Assembly: GCA_938045315.1 (NCBI GenBank)
Contig: CALINM010000031.1
Span: 1 to 7,085, forward strand
DNA length: 7,085 nt
Reading direction: 5' to 3'
From: an uncultured bacterium
GTDB taxonomy: Bacteria > CALINM01
The translations under genes were made by a program, and so were the position numbers. Positions 1 to 7,085 of the stretch are shown one piece after another. The notes under the pieces were generated by a model. It saw only the letters and a program-made list of their open reading frames with translations, was not told the DNA's origin and did no database searches. Every line of letters begins with the position of its first letter. Position 1 is the first letter of the stretch.

Positions 1-276
1 AATTACTTTTTTAAATATTTAGATTATAATGAGACATATTACACTGGATTACAGGTTACCAAAGATCCTGGAGTATGGATTGTATGGTTAGGATGCTTTT
101 TAATGATGGTTGGTTTATACTACAGTTTTTTTATTATAAGAAAAAGGCTATGGGTAAGGTTAAGTTTTGATGGTGAAAAGACTGTTATAACAATAGCAGG
201 TCAATCAACAAGGACAAGAGTTTTTGAAGAAGAGTTTGCAAAAATTGTTCAACAAGTAAAAGATATGAAAATATAG
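1..276 (+). CDS. resB: ResB-like cytochrome c biogenesis protein, C-terminal fragment
   Basis: The frame is open from the first base and ends at TAG 274-276, giving the last 91 residues of a protein whose start lies outside the window. The residues around GLQVTKDPG, followed by a hydrophobic segment (about residues 26-47) and a basic stretch (RKRLW), resemble the last transmembrane helix and cytoplasmic tail of ResB/Ccs1. ResB works with CcsA/CcsB in system II cytochrome c maturation, carrying haem across the inner membrane and presenting reduced apocytochrome for ligation. The next gene is ccsB, 8 nt downstream, which is the usual partner and order. Family assignment rests on a short C-terminal piece plus this neighbour. 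Confidence 0.75.
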   Translation, partial: NYFFKYLDYNETYYTGLQVTKDPGVWIVWLGCFLMMVGLYYSFFIIRKRLWVRLSFDGEKTVITIAGQSTRTRVFEEEFAKIVQQVKDMKI

Positions 277-284
277 GAGGCAAT

Positions 285-1151
285 ATGGAAGGCTCCCTTT
301 ACATAAGTGGTAAACTTTTATCAATAACAACTTTTGTTTATTTTTTTGCAATGTTTGCTTATATAATATTCGTTGTTGGTAGAAATAGGGTTATTGGCTT
401 AATGGGGACAATTTTAACTGCCAGTGGTTTTCTTTTAGAATCAGGTGGTCTTGTACTAAGATGGATAGAGTCTTATCAAATGGGGATAGGCAGGGCACCA
501 CTTACTAACCTATATGAATCTCTTGTTTTTTTTGCCTGGTGTACTGCAGGTATGTATTTAGCTTTTGAATTCTATTATAAAAACAGATTTATGGGAGCCT
601 TTGTTCTACCCTTTGTTTCTATGGCAATGGCTTATGCATCTTTTTCTCCTAATATATCACAGGAAATACAACCTCTTGTTCCAGCTCTTCAAAGTAATTG
701 GTTAATTTACCATGTGGTAACATGTTTTTTGGCTTATGCTGCTTTTACAGTAGCTTGTGGTGTGAGTATCATGTATTTGGTTAAATTTAGAAAGGAAGAA
801 AAAAAATTACCATTTGGCCCTATATTATCATTGTTTCCCACTACTGCTCTTCTTGATGATATTAATTATAAGGCCATAGCTGTAGGGTTTCCTATGTTGA
901 CATTGGGTATTATTACTGGTGCAGCATGGGCAAGTTATGCATGGGGCAGCTACTGGAGCTGGGATCCAAAGGAAACGTGGTCCTTGATAACATGGTTTGT
1001 TTATGCTGCTTTTCTGCATGCTCGTTTTACTAGAGGTTGGCGAGGTAAAAAAGCAGCCTGGTTATCGGTTATTGGATTTCTGTCAGTTATTATAACTTAT
1101 TTGGGGGTTAATTTACTACTTTCAGGATTGCATAGCTATGGAGGTAATTAA
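285..1151 (+). CDS. ccsB: CcsB/ResC cytochrome c haem lyase subunit (system II)
   Basis: This intact 288-residue inner-membrane protein exports haem and, with ResB, attaches it to CXXCH motifs of cytochromes c in the periplasm. It has many hydrophobic helices and the family's PLTNLYES motif at about residues 72-79. The tryptophan-rich haem-handling segment is at about 215-232 (W215, W220, W224, W226, W232, with WSWDPKE). Candidate haem-ligand histidines are H143, H245 and H283. Length is normal for CcsB/CcsA. The start is set by a perfect AGGAGG (275-280) 4 nt before ATG; the upstream ResB-like gene stops at 276, so the two are probably co-transcribed. The following cytochrome frame overlaps its 3' end by 14 nt. 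It contains an A8 run (about 799-806) yet no frameshift, unlike the neighbouring cytochrome genes. Confidence 0.94.
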   Translation: MEGSLYISGKLLSITTFVYFFAMFAYIIFVVGRNRVIGLMGTILTASGFLLESGGLVLRWIESYQMGIGRAPLTNLYESLVFFAWCTAGMYLAFEFYYKNRFMGAFVLPFVSMAMAYASFSPNISQEIQPLVPALQSNWLIYHVVTCFLAYAAFTVACGVSIMYLVKFRKEEKKLPFGPILSLFPTTALLDDINYKAIAVGFPMLTLGIITGAAWASYAWGSYWSWDPKETWSLITWFVYAAFLHARFTRGWRGKKAAWLSVIGFLSVIITYLGVNLLLSGLHSYGGN

Positions 1152-2034
1152 AAACAATATCAAGTTTTTGATTATTCTTTTTGTTTCAATTTTAACCTAT
1201 ACCGTTTCCTCCTATGGTGTGGAGAATTATGTACCTTAAGGGTGTCATGACAATCTTTTAAAAAGAACCTTTTGCGCATGGCTCCGTAAGAGGTATAAAC
1301 TGTCAAAGATGTCATGGTGGTGAAGAACATCTGTACCCTTTAATAAAAAAAAGAAGAGATATGTAGTATTTGTCATAAAACTATAATATGCAAAAAAATA
1401 TTCATCCTCCTGTATCCAAAAACTGTATGAACTGTCATAATTCCTGTTCATTAAAGTATGAAAATTTGTTAATTAGCTCTAAAGAAACTTTATGATTCAA
1501 TTGTCAAGAGCAAAGGTATTTTAAAAATAATGTTATACATCCACCGGTATATGAAAATTGTATGAACTGCCATAAGCCTCATGATAGTGATTACAAAAAG
1601 TTATTGATTAATCAGGATAGTAAACTTTGTTACAACTGTCATGAACCAAAAAATACAAAAAAAACATATCCATCCACCTGTTAAAGAAGGCGATTGTGTT
1701 GGTGTCATAATCCCCATTCTGCAAGAACAAAAGGTTTGACAAAGGATGTGGGTAATAGTTTGTGTTTTTTGTGTCACGATAAAAAGAGTTATGTAGGTAA
1801 AAAAATGTTCACGCCCCTGTATCTGAAAATTGCAAAAATTGTCATCAACCCCATGAAAGTGATTTTGCCAGACTTTACAGGAGTAAACAGGAAAAACTTA
1901 TAAAAAGGGCGTTCAAAAGCTTTGGAGTTTGGAATATTCCTATAAAATTTACCAAAACTATCACTGGTGGTGGGTGTATTGTGGGATGTCATAAGCCATT
2001 TTATTTTGATAGAGTTAAACCAGTAAAAAATTAA
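1138..2034 (+). pseudogene. Multihaem c-type cytochrome with paired CXXCH repeats, multiply frameshifted
   Basis: No single frame spans this gene, but joining frames gives about 298 residues: a secretion signal (KFLIILFVSILTY), then about eleven haem-motif positions. Intact CXXCH are at 1301, 1362, 1424, 1559, 1628, 1763 and 1831. CV-CH at 1695 is split by a frameshift. The motifs at 1234 and 1493 are damaged, and a CX3CH (CIVGCH) lies at 1975. Frame changes occur near 1270-1273 (T4), 1345-1352 (A8), 1383-1398 (A7), 1657-1664 (A8), 1699-1700 and 1799-1805 (A7): three extra and three missing bases, net zero. In-frame stops are TAA 1237 and TGA 1493. The protein should be a periplasmic or exported electron carrier. 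GGAGGT at 1140-1145 lies just inside the ATG at 1138, so the original start may have been slightly downstream and lost. It is either a decaying gene or a victim of sequencing indels. Confidence 0.8.
1403..1903 (+). repeat. Four tandem ~45-codon haem-pair repeats inside the first cytochrome
   Basis: After frame correction the protein repeats a unit that begins HPPV or HAPV, at His codons 1403, 1538, 1671 and 1810 (spacings 135, 133 and 139 nt). Each unit has a first haem motif about 7 codons later, usually followed by a PH pair and a leucine-rich linker. A second haem motif closes units 1-3. Unit 1 has lost its second motif (stop codon plus Gln for His). Unit 4 has the linker but no second CXXCH, running instead into a basic segment (LIKRAFKSFG). 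The layout matches the doubled-CXXCH family of multihaem cytochromes. Confidence 0.75.
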
Positions 2035-2039
2035 GAACT

Positions 2040-2955
2040 ATGGTAAAAAATTTTAATATCCTTGGTACTTGTTTTTATTAGCAAAGCCTATGCTTTAAAG
2101 ATAATTGTTACCGATGACAAAAGCTTTGTAACTTCACCATATATTTATGTAATTGCTAATATTGAACGTGAAGATGCAACTCATGTTATGATTACAGTTA
2201 ATGACATAAAATCACCACTTATTCACATTGCATCAAACGACTTTAAATCCCAATTTAAAGATTATCTCATAATAGATGTAGAGCTTGAGAAAGGTGAGAA
2301 TCTTCCAAGTCTATCATTATTTAAAAATGGGAGGCCAATAGAGGAGAAAAAAGCTTTAGTCAATCTCATTTTACCCCCTGGAGATATTCCTAATAATGCT
2401 AAAAAAAATTATTTTCATAAAGAGGAAAAGGAAAATTTGTCTTGATTCTCACGCTTCTATACAAAATTGTGCGGAGTGCCACAAAAGGATTCTTTCTAAA
2501 AAATATGTTCATGGTACAGCAGGTTTTGGGGATTGTAATGTATGTCATTTAGAAGATAATAAAAATGGTGTAAAATATACAGTGCAACAAAGTATTGTTG
2601 AAATATGCATTAATTGTCATAATAATATGAGAATAGATAATTACAGATATGCGCATGGTCCATTTGTTGCTGGTTCCTGTGAAGTTTGCCATGATTTACA
2701 TTCATCGGAATATCCCCATCAATTAAAGATGGATACTAAGGATTTGTGCATAAGTTGTCATCATGAGTTTAAAAAACCAGGTGTTATTCATGTGGTAACC
2801 AAACATCCCTTAAGCGGTAAAAGGGATCCATCAAGACCCGGGAAAATGCTTCAATGTAGTAGCTGCCACAACCCCATGGAGAAAATTCCCAGGTATTTTT
2901 TGTTAGGGGTGTAAAAAATAGAATGGAGCTGTGTACAATATGTCATAAAAAATGA
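2040..2955 (+). pseudogene. About eight-haem c-type cytochrome with a non-haem N-terminal domain, frameshifted
   Basis: Joining frames gives about 304 residues. A signal peptide ends near SKAYA. A ~100-residue haem-free domain follows (about 2089-2400), rich in alternating hydrophobic residues and possibly a beta-sandwich. A C-terminal domain then has CLDSH (2438), CAECH (2468), CNVCH (2534), CINCH (2606), CEVCH (2678), CISCH (2747), CSSCH (2855) and CTICH (2932). Frameshifts are at A6 2045-2050 (one extra), A4 2432-2435 (one extra) and C4 2872-2875 (one missing; restoring it gives CHNPHGE and opens the last haem motif). The stop TGA 2953-2955 overlaps the ATG at 2952. ATG 2040 follows the previous stop by 5 nt, so it sits in the same operon. 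The first haem motif has Ser for the second Cys. It is probably a periplasmic or exported electron carrier, of unknown exact role. Confidence 0.78.
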
Positions 2956-2960
2956 AGGGG
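2955..2960 (+). promoter_or_regulatory. Ribosome binding site choosing the NHL lipoprotein start
   Basis: AAGGGG lies 6 nt before the ATG at 2967. The earlier in-frame ATG at 2952 overlaps the preceding cytochrome's TGA and lies upstream of this site, so 2967 is the better start. It also leaves a compact lipoprotein signal beginning MFKKF. Confidence 0.6.
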
Positions 2961-2966
2961 TTTGGA

Positions 2967-4010
2967 ATGTTTAAGAAATTTTTATGGTGTTTTTTAGTAA
3001 TTTTATTTTTTTCCTGTTCACAAAAACAGGAGGTAGTTAAAAAAGAGCGTTTTTTCTGGCCACCACCACCAAATGAACCTAAGGTAGAGTTTATTGGTGC
3101 ATACAGTGGCAACAGTGATTTGCCTCAAAAATTCAGCTTTGTTAAGAAAATTACTGGTGCCACTGAGCCTGAGATTAAACTTAGAAACCCCCTTCATATT
3201 ACTTCAGATGGTGAAGGTATTGTGGTTGTAACAGATTTGCTACCCTATGGTGGACTGGTGTTTAATTTTAATGAAAACAAGGTAGAGTTTATATCTAAAG
3301 AACCTTCCTTTCAGTTTGCAACAGGAGTGGCTTTTGATAGGGATAGGCTTTATGTTGCCGATGGTAGGGCAGGGAACATAAAAGTTTTTACGAAAAAAGA
3401 TAGAAATCCCCTTTATACTATAGGAGATGGGGATTTACAAAGTCCTAATGGTATTGCTATAAATGATAAACTAAACTGGCTTTATATAGTTGATACTAAA
3501 GCTCATAAAGTTTATGTATATGATCTTATAACAAAAAAACAGCTTTTTAGCTTTGGAAAACCTGGTGATAAGGAAGGGGAATTTAATAGACCATGGGGCA
3601 TCAGTATTGATAAAAATGGTGATGTCTATATCACTGATGGGTTGAATGCGAGAATACAAATTTTTGATAAAAATGGGAAATTTATCAGCATGTTTGGTAA
3701 AAGGGGTGATAAACCGGGTGAATTTGCTCAGGTAAAGGGTATTGGTATAGATTCTGATAATAACATTTATGTAATTGATCCTTTTAAGTCGATTCAGTTA
3801 TTTGATAGACAGGGGCAGCTTTTAGGATTAGTTGGTGCACCGGGTACTAAGGGTATAGGCGCTATGAGTTTGCCAATGGGACTTTATGTGGATAAGCATG
3901 ACAGAATATATGTAGTAGATCAGATGAACAGGCGTTTCCAAATATTTCAGTATATGAATGAAGTGTATAAGAAGAAGAATCCTGTAGATTTTGGTGAAAA
4001 GGCAAAATAA
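2967..4010 (+). CDS. NHL-repeat six-bladed beta-propeller lipoprotein
   Basis: This intact protein has 347 residues from ATG 2967 (352 if ATG 2952 is used). It begins with a type II signal, MFKKFLW, then a hydrophobic core and a lipobox ending FFSC, so Cys17 would be lipidated. Next is a FFWPPPPNEP segment, typical of NHL proteins found beside multihaem cytochromes. Six NHL blades follow, each with a G-I/V-x-hydrophobic-D/N...hydrophobic-Y/V-V-x-D pattern, at roughly residues 73-105, 117-142, 159-187, 208-235, 256-281 and 302-328. Such propellers are scaffolds, and no catalytic residues are visible. Between the cytochromes and the barrel, a role in assembling or docking the outer-membrane electron conduit is plausible but inferred. 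It is free of frameshifts although flanked by broken genes. Confidence 0.9.
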   Translation: MFKKFLWCFLVILFFSCSQKQEVVKKERFFWPPPPNEPKVEFIGAYSGNSDLPQKFSFVKKITGATEPEIKLRNPLHITSDGEGIVVVTDLLPYGGLVFNFNENKVEFISKEPSFQFATGVAFDRDRLYVADGRAGNIKVFTKKDRNPLYTIGDGDLQSPNGIAINDKLNWLYIVDTKAHKVYVYDLITKKQLFSFGKPGDKEGEFNRPWGISIDKNGDVYITDGLNARIQIFDKNGKFISMFGKRGDKPGEFAQVKGIGIDSDNNIYVIDPFKSIQLFDRQGQLLGLVGAPGTKGIGAMSLPMGLYVDKHDRIYVVDQMNRRFQIFQYMNEVYKKKNPVDFGEKAK

Positions 4011-4033
4011 TGGCGTGAAAAAACATTAACACT

Positions 4034-4061
4034 AAATTAAAAATTTTCAAATTTTTTATTT
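4034..4061 (+). repeat. AT-only imperfect palindrome between the NHL and OmcE-like genes
   Basis: Two 13-nt arms (4034-4046 and 4049-4061) are inverted copies with one mismatch and a 2-nt loop. The stem has no G-C pair and no following T-run, so it is a poor terminator. In sequence this AT-rich it could arise by chance. The rest of the 4011-4110 spacer shows no convincing promoter. Confidence 0.3.
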
Positions 4062-4101
4062 ACTAATTTATGAATTTATGTATACCTTCATAAAAAAAGG
4101 T

Positions 4102-4107
4102 GAAAGG
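4102..4107 (+). promoter_or_regulatory. Probable ribosome binding site of the OmcE-like gene
   Basis: GAAAGG, in the context AAAGGTGAAAGG, sits 4-8 nt before the A8 run at 4113-4120, where the signal peptide begins (KKALVLKIAAALALA). It indicates the true start should lie at about 4111-4116, although no start codon is present in frame there. Confidence 0.45.
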
Positions 4108-4114
4108 TTAGTAA

Positions 4115-4789
4115 AAAAAAGCTTTAGTATTAAAAATAGCAGCTGCTTTAGCACTAGCTGTGGTAAATGTTTATGCTGCATCAGACATTAGAAACACAAA
4201 GCATAATCTGGCAAACTGGTCAGGTAACACTTATCGTTCCACCGATTATAATGAAGTCTGTGTTTTCTGTCACACTCCCCACATGGCTGGTAGTTGGCCC
4301 CTTTGGAACAGAAATTATACTGAGCCCACATTTATAGCTTATTCATCAGTAATGTTTAATCCACAGAATTTTGGTGGTACAGGGCAGCCAGATGAAACAT
4401 CAAAGTTGTGTTTCTCCTGTCACGAGCAGCAAAATACAGCATCTACAACGAATCTCCTTAATACATCGAATCTTGTAAATGGTAGTCAACCTTCATTTAA
4501 TTTTACAAAGATTCATCCAACAGCTGCTTTAGGTACAGATCTAAGAGATGATCACCCAATTGGTTTTAACTACTCAGCAGCAGCAAATACAAATTATGAG
4601 CTTTATACTGCCGCACAAGCAGCTGCGAATATGGGAGAATCAGTAGCAGCAATATTCCCAGGTGATCAGATGACTTGCTTTAGCTCTCATGATGTTCATG
4701 GAAAAGTTTCAGGAGGTTTTGTTATACCTGTGTTATTAAGAAGGTTAAATGCTTCCAGTATGCTTTGCTGGTCCTGCCATAACAGGTAA
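4115..4789 (+). CDS. OmcE-like tetrahaem extracellular cytochrome, start codon missing
   Basis: The frame is open from the A-run to TAA 4787-4789. It encodes a signal peptide (KKALVLKIAAALALAVVNVYA), then about 200 mature residues. The order of landmarks is that of OmcE-type cytochromes: KHNL near the N terminus, CVFCHTPH (4259), PLWNR, CFSCHE (4409), DDHPIGFNY, MTCFSSHDVHG (4676) and a C-terminal CWSCH (4766). OmcE of Geobacter is a four-haem protein that polymerises into extracellular conducting filaments with stacked haems. Here the third motif reads CFSSH (TCT for an expected TGT or TGC at 4685-4687), so one haem would lack a thioether cysteine. In frame a TAA at 4112 precedes the signal, and no ATG, GTG or TTG occurs before GTG 4160, which would delete the signal. 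An A8 indel could restore a start (for example from ATG 4078). A terminator follows 14 nt downstream. Confidence 0.82.
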   Translation, partial: KKALVLKIAAALALAVVNVYAASDIRNTKHNLANWSGNTYRSTDYNEVCVFCHTPHMAGSWPLWNRNYTEPTFIAYSSVMFNPQNFGGTGQPDETSKLCFSCHEQQNTASTTNLLNTSNLVNGSQPSFNFTKIHPTAALGTDLRDDHPIGFNYSAAANTNYELYTAAQAAANMGESVAAIFPGDQMTCFSSHDVHGKVSGGFVIPVLLRRLNASSMLCWSCHNR

Positions 4790-4802
4790 AATTTAATTAA
4801 AC

Positions 4803-4825
4803 AGGGGGGATTATCCCCCTTTTTT
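4803..4825 (+). terminator. Rho-independent terminator after the OmcE-like cytochrome
   Basis: The stem pairs 4803-4810 with 4814-4821 (AGGGGGGA against TCCCCCTT, with one G-T wobble) around a TTA loop, followed by a T-run to 4825. It is the strongest hairpin in the window and its only GC-rich one. It ends 3 nt before the next gene's ATG, so the barrel gene needs readthrough or a start site within the hairpin. Confidence 0.85.
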
Positions 4826-4828
4826 GAG

Positions 4829-6620
4829 ATGAAAAATGTAATTATTATTTTTTTTATTTATGTTGTAGTTTTGATTCCCATCCCCTTCTTGCAAAAGGGT
4901 TTTCTGGCTCTCTATCTTATACCTATCAGGAAGATAAAATTGATTATCACATCTCAAACAGGGAAGAAAATAATTCTTATTTTTTACAGCGTTATAATCT
5001 GGATTACTCAAAACTAATTTTTCTACAAGATGGAGCCTTAGGTACTTTAAGGTAATGGAAACGGCAATGGTGGTATTCTCTCAGGTAATGGCAACGGACT
5101 TTTCCACAGTGGAAATGGTAATGGAGGTGGGTTATTGGGTAGAAGGGTTGGGCCTCTTACGCCATATGCATATCTATTCGAATGGGAAAATTTTAGAACT
5201 GAAGGTGATAATATAGAGACAACCACTACAAATAGATATACATTGAATCTCGGGTTTTTAAAATTCTGGATAAATGCATATTATTATGTAACTGATGATG
5301 GTATAAAAAAAGTTCGTGAAACAATAGAAGTAGGCCAGAGGAGATATGATGGAAGACTTCTCTGGACATTGATAAATAACTGGATGGCATCATCAAGTTA
5401 TTTTGCATATAATTTAGATAAAGTTAATGATGTTGTCTCAAAAGAGAGCTATGAAGGCAATTTCATTTTTAAAACCTTCAGGAAAGATTGGAGATCCGAT
5501 CTAATTGCAAAAATCCTATATGAAAATGGATCCCTTGATGAAAGAATTAATATAAAACTACCCTATTATTTTTATGGCAGTACTTCTTTAACAAACTCTT
5601 TCAGTGGCGCTCTATCTTATGAGTTAGATAAAATTATGCGGGATAGATCTGAAGATTCTCAAACAAGTAAAGCAGTAAATAATTTCTCATTAACATTTAA
5701 GAGGGGGGAATGGAGTTATACTTCCCGACATGATATAATTTACTTCACAGATAATACCAACAATAAATCAGGTATTTTTGATTACGACTATCTAACTTTC
5801 AACTATGATTTTAGTTTTATCAAACACTCTGGGTTAAGCTCACCTTATTTTCATGAAGGTGGATATACATTGACAGTACATGATTATCTTACAAGTAGTG
5901 TAGATAATAAGAAAATAAGGCAGATTCATACAGTAAGATATAAAATTTCGGGCCCAATTAATCCAAAGTTAAGTTTTCTATTTTCAGAGAAGAACGATTA
6001 AAGGTATGGCATCTTATACAAAAATTGAAAGAAAAGTATTCATTAATGCAGAAACAGGTAAAAGCATATTACAAAGGGTCAGTAATAATGATGAGTCAAA
6101 CTATTTCGTTAATTTACAGGTTTTATATACTCCAGGATATAATTTTACTTCAAAAACAGTGGCTTTTATAAATCGTTCAGATAGAGAAAATGGGGTTGAT
6201 ACTTTTACAGAAAGCAAGGGTATCTCCGAAGAACTTAGTTATGCCATTTATACAAATGATTATTATAGTAGAAAAATCCTTGATACAAGGGCTTATGCAA
6301 AATATGAAAAATATACTAATATTTCAGGTTTAATAGCAGATAGGTACATCGGTACAAATCCATTTAAGGAAAAAACACTCATAACTCTGGAAGGAATTTT
6401 AACTTTATATCCCTATAGATATTTATCGGTGGGTGGTAGAATAAAAAATGAGAGTTTTAAAGATGAAGATGGTTATAAAGATAATTTAACATATATAATA
6501 AGGGCTGATTTAACATTTCCTTTGCTTTCTATTAATAGCTATTACCAGCATAAAAAAATAAGAATTGATGGTAATAGAGACGAAGACATATTTTTTATAA
6601 ATTTGACCAAGCGTTTTTGA
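4829..6620 (+). pseudogene. Outer-membrane beta-barrel (porin-like) protein, frameshifted
   Basis: Joining frames gives about 596 residues. A hydrophobic signal (MKNVIIIFFIYVVVLIP) ends near LLAKG, and mature sequence begins FSGSLSYTYQED. A Gly/Asn repeat segment follows, then a long stretch of alternating polar and aromatic residues with many Tyr, Asn, Asp and Lys, typical of barrel strands. The C terminus is NLTKRF, and a terminal Phe is the classic outer-membrane insertion signal. Frameshifts are at C4 4882-4885 (one missing), AA 5049-5050 (one extra, creating TAA 5053) and AA about 5992-5994 (one extra, creating TAA 5999). The 5051-5998 and 6003-6620 stretches are clean. Beside multihaem cytochromes it could be the sheath of a porin-cytochrome conduit or the exit channel for the OmcE-like filament. 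I do not recognise a named family. A 5' signal and 3' Phe belonging together support one gene. Confidence 0.78.
5051..5140 (+). repeat. Gly/Asn-rich tandem repeat in the barrel protein
   Basis: Three imperfect units, GNGNGNGGILS (5051-5083), GNGNGLFHS (5084-5110) and GNGNGGGLLG (5111-5140), are encoded by repeating GGTAATGG-like words. The segment lies early in the mature protein, between predicted strands. It would be a flexible or glycine-loop insertion at the surface or lumen. Codons vary between units (GGT/GGA/GGC, AAT/AAC), so it is not a recent exact duplication. Confidence 0.75.
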
Positions 6621-6659: not shown

Positions 6660-7085
6660 ATGAACTTTTTTAAGATTGAGAAAATAGAAAAATTAATTTT
6701 TTTTGCAATTTTATTATTTCTAATTTTTGTTTTTTATCCCCTTGAAACCTTCTCAGAGGGGGTTGATTTTTTGTTGGGTGGTTATTTTTTAGGGACTCCC
6801 CATCCCCCTTCTTACCCTGTTTACACACAGTTAGTTTGTCTGACAAAATATATTCCTTTAGGAAATTTAGCCTTAAGAGCAAATCTTTTGACAGCTTCTT
6901 TATCTTTTTTATTTCTTTTGTTTTTTTACAAAAAACTCAAAGGTAGCCTGTTAGATAGGTTTGTATGTATAATTGTTGTTCTTTTTAGCTATACATTTTT
7001 TATTAACTCGATAAATGGAGAGTTGTATGTATTAAATCTCCTTTTAATTTTTCTCATATTCTTTTTACTGGAAAAAGAGGATAAA
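6660..7085 (+). CDS. DUF2723-family polytopic membrane protein, N-terminal part
   Basis: The frame is open from ATG 6660 to the window end (142 codons), so the protein continues outside. The first hydrophobic helix is at about residues 12-27. A loop with an acidic pair (E33, D36) and GTPHPPSYPVY (45-55) follows, then PLGNLALRANLL and hydrophobic helices at about 70-90, 101-116 and 122-137. The acidic pair, HPPxYPxY and R-NLL pattern is that of the DUF2723 family. These are multi-spanning proteins related to protein O-mannosyltransferases and other GT-C glycosyltransferases, which includes eukaryotic TMEM260. The substrate is unknown. The start is the only plausible one for the first helix, though it lacks a Shine-Dalgarno. 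It may belong to a separate transcription unit from the cytochrome cluster. Confidence 0.75.
   Translation, partial: MNFFKIEKIEKLIFFAILLFLIFVFYPLETFSEGVDFLLGGYFLGTPHPPSYPVYTQLVCLTKYIPLGNLALRANLLTASLSFLFLLFFYKKLKGSLLDRFVCIIVVLFSYTFFINSINGELYVLNLLLIFLIFFLLEKEDK

Follow-up and report, generated by a model that had tools for sequence, protein, structure and literature searches.

The window analysed here, the entire contig C31 (7085 bp) of a 1.86-Mb MAG that is 92% complete, is, with a probability of about 80%, a damaged equivalent of the Geobacter ppcA-omcE locus, with conserved synteny, from a small and little sampled lineage, whose phylum is represented by three genomes in the collection searched. 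The gene arrangement is neither new nor special to this genome: it is that of the conserved ppcA-omcE locus. All of the components listed in a first-pass annotation of this DNA (the C-terminus of ResB, CcsB, two multihaem cytochromes, an NHL protein, an OmcE-family cytochrome and a barrel) were found again and in the same order (Table 1). The plus strand of the window carries 17 CXXCH-type DNA motifs; chance alone predicts 0.39 for the two strands together. The first cytochrome, the 8-haem gene and the barrel gene are not open reading frames, a condition absent from that annotation. The N-terminal part of ResB and a ppcA-like gene, both intact, are located on another contig of this MAG, C122. 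The NHL protein exhibits a lipobox-like FFSC, as read by eye.

Table 1. Features of the window and the matches that support their assignment
Feature	State	Position	Strand	Matches and remarks
ResB, C-terminal part (91 aa)	open	1..276	+	haem ligation (System II); PF05140 2.9e-20
CcsB (ResC/CcsA-type) haem-ligation protein (867 bp)	intact	285..1151	+	PF01578 2.1e-60
Multihaem cytochrome remnant	broken	about 1138..2034	+	19 CXXCH in G001 and G002 counterparts
8-haem cytochrome	frameshifted	about 2041..2951	+	PF09699 1.8e-19; open pieces 2062-2445, 2396-2914
NHL-repeat (beta-propeller) probable lipoprotein (1059 bp)	intact	2952..4010	+	PF01436 2.5e-24
OmcE-family cytochrome	frame open, no start codon	4115..4789	+	7tfs 3.5e-20, 9yuq 2e-22
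Third haem site of the OmcE-family protein	CFSSH replacing CSSCH	4676..4690	+	
Probable outer-membrane beta-barrel	broken	4831..6620	+	open pieces 5135-6001, 6006-6620; 789 aa in G001
TMEM260-like protein O-mannosyltransferase, N-terminal part	open	6660..7085	+	PF11028 1.5e-6, over cut-off

The sister genome G001, used as reference, carries the complete locus in the order 4-haem c3/c7-like cytochrome, ResB, CcsB, 19-haem cytochrome (555 aa), 8-haem cytochrome (307 aa, 8 CXXCH), NHL protein, OmcE-like protein (4 CXXCH), 789-aa barrel and TMEM260-like protein. Its CcsB copy scores above the TIGR03144 cut-off (308 bits vs 187.6). G002, a member of the same family used as outgroup, shows an identical order from the ppcA-like gene through NHL, including the 19-haem cytochrome, and its contig ends in the NHL gene. 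The 19-CXXCH first cytochrome (L012 12253-13920; L159 of G002) is composed of tandem doubled-CXXCH modules.

An OmcE-like match occurs in 148 of the 244 genomes of the class to which a Geopsychrobacter MAG belongs. Our Desulfuromonadia sample consists of 19 omcE loci around the best OmcE-like matches (L140-L158), all of which include ResB, CcsB, an 8-haem cytochrome, an NHL protein, OmcE and an ORF of about 750 aa, while a ppcA-like gene is present in 14 and a first cytochrome, with 7-10 haems, in 16. The approximately 750-aa ORF is homologous to the window barrel (hhalign 98.7%, E 4.5e-16; hmmsearch 1.3e-24). The first-pass annotation had made its proposal depend on related loci also holding NHL and barrel genes beside the cytochrome gene, and an NHL gene and a homologous barrel gene do flank omcE in each of the 19 loci. 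The order (ppcA)-ResB-CcsB-cytochrome-8-haem-NHL-OmcE-barrel is matched by the window, with the ppcA end on C122. It is further supported by the agreement of published locus numbers in G. sulfurreducens, where ppcA is GSU0612 and omcE GSU0618 (PMC2700814) and ResB and ResC are GSU0613 and GSU0614 (PMC7894505); the position of ResB/CcsB adjoining ppcA has already been noted (PMC11434368).

All genes of the locus are intact in G001 but not in the window. The genes had been presented as a complete export route, but in the sequence as it stands no normal product can come from four of the seven (those for the first cytochrome, the 8-haem cytochrome, OmcE and the barrel). Compared with G001, the first cytochrome gene is interrupted by nonsense codons in frame and by six small frameshifting indels, and it has lost 756 bp in a deletion which takes out about half of its haem sites. 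Its first haem site combines a Cys-to-Tyr change with an in-frame stop, and another site combines a Cys-to-stop with a His-to-Gln change. The 8-haem gene is split by a frameshift and its first haem motif is damaged, while in the barrel gene there is one 1-bp frameshift along with three deletions (266, 99 and 215 bp). CcsB and NHL are open throughout, as are the pieces of ResB and TMEM260. The same comparison applied to 22 genes from four other contigs of the MAG revealed one possible frame change (in the remainder of TMEM260) and three alignments with one stop each; as the queries extended between stops, some of these stops may fall upstream of the true start. Full-length frames are retained by the MAG's other multihaem genes, for example one of 310 aa on C129, the same in G001.

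Substitutions were also compared, using G002 as outgroup. At codon positions 1 and 2, the ratio of window-specific to G001-specific changes is 81:29 for the first cytochrome, a value that may be inflated by misaligned haem repeats around the 756-bp deletion, and 43:30, a mild excess, for the 8-haem gene; CcsB (16:11) and NHL (13:12) show no excess. The dN/dS values to G001, which are rough, dS being saturated, are 0.20 for the first cytochrome, 0.12 for the 8-haem gene, 0.037 for CcsB, 0.065 for NHL, 0.09 for the OmcE gene and 0.06 for the barrel pieces. The low values for OmcE and the barrel imply that a loss of function, if any, is either recent or only apparent.

The disruption of these four genes is most simply explained if the locus recently began to decay. 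Recent decay restricted to this locus is the explanation that we favour, as somewhat more likely than not rather than proven. The competing explanation, to which we give slightly less than even odds, is that the organism has a whole locus and that the breaks arose locally through errors of assembly or sequencing, the contig being short, probably of low coverage and containing repeated haem modules. Several of the 1-bp indels lie within A/T homopolymers, two of the large gaps fall in repeats (haem modules and GNG repeats), both ends of the short contig are inside genes, and the dN/dS of OmcE and of the barrel is low. However, the intact CcsB and NHL genes and the open ResB and TMEM260 pieces are interspersed with the broken genes, nonsense and haem-ligand substitutions are present in addition to indels, frameshifts are almost absent from the other contigs, including their multihaem genes, and CcsB and NHL lack an excess of window-specific changes. 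The near absence of frameshifts from the other contigs, the intact CcsB and NHL and the whole locus in G001 favour decay over assembly error. If the damage is real, the system can be lost from one lineage and kept in a close relative.

The assignment of the tetrahaem protein to the OmcE family agrees with the earlier proposal. A phmmer search of PDB with the window protein (E up to 1) returned three matches, 9yuq and OmcE 7tfs (Table 1) and NrfB (0.046). A profile built from 38 sequences of the family, from many phyla and with the window included, matches Geobacter OmcE 7tfs over its full length at 1.4e-53 and the OmcE-like 9yuq at 7.4e-50. The proposal had named a better fit to a soluble periplasmic cytochrome family as the result that would speak against it; NrfB reaches 0.24 with this profile, which rules out a soluble NrfB/c3-type cytochrome. 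OmcS is ruled out because its match (5.8e-6) covers only 21 positions around a haem motif, and OmcZ because it gave zero match in both phmmer and profile searches.

The alignment of the 38 rows contains exactly eight invariant His, of which four belong to haem motifs and the other four lie outside them, and all eight are kept by the window protein (H15, H38, H41, H88, H132, H177, H180 and H207). The four CXXCH attributed to it are found in G001, but the window copy has three CXXCH together with the CFSSH of haem 3, whose second Cys is replaced by Ser in the window alone (1 of 38 rows). Its frame opens immediately 3' of a TAA at 4112-4114. An AlphaFold2 monomer without haem, run on the window protein with 37 relatives, was too poor (pLDDT 45) to bear on filament formation. 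In the OmcE tree the window sits on a long branch without a firm position, and its grouping with the OmcE proteins of the syntenic Desulfuromonadia loci was neither supported nor rejected (p-AU 0.46).

OmcE filaments of G. sulfurreducens have been solved and one haem is ligated by the His of a neighbouring subunit (PMC9473688, PMC12307469). It is unlikely that the protein of the window genome and of G001 is instead a monomeric surface or periplasmic cytochrome forming no filament: members of the family occur very widely, some of them fused into 11-haem proteins, and the physiological role of OmcE/OmcS filaments in electron transfer is disputed (PMC13194489, PMC11077965), but the match to the polymeric OmcE is full-length and all eight His are kept, including an N-terminal TKH-type His that lacks a CXXCH partner of its own.

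OmcE-like genes extend well beyond this type of locus. A scan of public genomes identified at least 571 OmcE-like stretches, and neighbourhoods were counted around the best 79 loci among them. An NHL gene lies within 3 kb of 37 of the 42 single-domain OmcE-like genes, which come from many phyla and thereby strengthen the NHL part of the expectation on related loci, and of 26 of the 37 fused ones; 35 kb on the MAG's other contigs gave no NHL match. ResB or CcsB within 9 kb is uncommon around these 79 loci and, in the wider set, the barrel family is limited to one Desulfuromonadales locus, G001 and the window. The frequency of NHL, and the rarity of ResB/CcsB and of the barrel, near OmcE-like genes indicate that NHL is a general partner of OmcE-like proteins, while the haem-ligation genes and the barrel family mark the ppcA-omcE type among OmcE-like loci.

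Many OmcE-like sequences form the N-terminal part of larger proteins that span about 400-1000 aa and in most cases have 11 haems (L038, L051, L056, L066, L073 and others); a description of this fused form was not found in the literature searched. G001 and G002 also carry a second cluster, composed of NHL, OmcE-like and 7-haem genes, before type II secretion/pilus-assembly-like genes (L013 6420-8290; L015 10462-12392). In the window MAG, contigs C116 and C120 end either side of the corresponding spot, and one OmcE-like gene was found in this MAG.

The barrel is predicted from a C-terminal Phe, the lack of membrane helices and amphipathic strands above those of shuffled sequences, the assignment being made without a structural model or solved relative. 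A profile search of Pfam, NCBIfam and PDB gave no match for the family. The gene includes GNGNG-type glycine/asparagine repeats (window 5048-5135) that are shorter than in G001 (L012 barrel residues about 160-225).

By analogy with OmcE of G. sulfurreducens, a working scheme can be proposed for the intact version present in G001. The c3/c7-like, 19-haem and 8-haem cytochromes would pass electrons through the periplasm, ResB and CcsB would attach the many haems, and the NHL propeller lipoprotein and the barrel would make an outer-membrane station exporting or anchoring OmcE. The tetrahaem subunit would polymerise outside the cell, where a His from the adjacent subunit would probably complete the ligation of one haem in each subunit. 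A different role for the same parts appears doubtful, namely that NHL, barrel and large cytochromes form a porin-cytochrome-type conduit in which OmcE is the terminal surface cytochrome and the barrel no exporter. Porin-cytochrome clusters do encode a multihaem cytochrome, a barrel and a surface cytochrome together, and the present locus likewise groups an 8-haem cytochrome with a barrel and a surface cytochrome. However, nothing similar to the barrel family was detected among solved proteins or Pfam or NCBIfam models, and the most widespread link is the NHL-OmcE pairing, which occurs even without these large cytochromes or the barrel family. Returning to the export scheme, the presence of the Geobacter-type ppcA-omcE arrangement in a separate lineage, together with a barrel family that has no Pfam, NCBIfam or PDB match, is an argument for regarding ResB/CcsB, the cytochromes, NHL and the barrel as one working unit with OmcE. 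The locus thus supplies candidate genes for the way in which cytochrome filaments exit the cell.

Glycosyltransferase genes lie immediately 3' of the barrel. A GT2 glycosyltransferase gene is located there in 18 of the 19 Desulfuromonadia loci, with a second one near in 17. In the window and in G001 (L012 5445-7013, minus strand) this place is held by the TMEM260-like protein O-mannosyltransferase (PF11028). Of the 79 other OmcE-like loci, just 4 have glycosyltransferase genes of this kind nearby. Extensive glycosylation of OmcE filaments has been described (PMC9473688). We tentatively suggest that the omcE locus may possess its own glycosylation module modifying the filament, composed of two GT2 enzymes, often with a GT-C/TPR-like membrane protein, in Desulfuromonadia and of the TMEM260-like protein here, which would represent an enzyme swap at the same position. 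On this hypothesis, the conserved glycosyltransferases beside the locus are direct candidates for the enzymes decorating OmcE.

Several known systems can be compared with this locus. Both core subunits of cytochrome c biogenesis System II (ResB/CcsB) are adjacent here, which is nothing unusual. OmcS and its osc (omcS companion) cluster share with it the idea of a filament cytochrome gene beside maturation/export helper genes, OmcS itself resembling the OmcE-like profile over no more than those 21 positions. OmcE (7tfs) and 9yuq are similar to the protein of this lineage over their full length, with common spacing of the haem sites and the eight His, and share about 37-40% identity with the intact copy of G001; the window copy differs from them in missing one haem Cys and the start codon. 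The closest counterpart is the ppcA-omcE locus of G. sulfurreducens (GSU0612-GSU0618); the sampled Desulfuromonadia omcE loci share with this lineage the gene order from the ppcA-like gene, where present, to the barrel. Loci of this type differ from the window's lineage by a first cytochrome with 7-10 haems instead of 19 (G001 and G002), by a trihaem PpcA instead of a tetrahaem c3-like protein and by GT2 glycosyltransferases instead of a TMEM260-like gene 3' of the barrel, and the window copy differs further by its broken genes.
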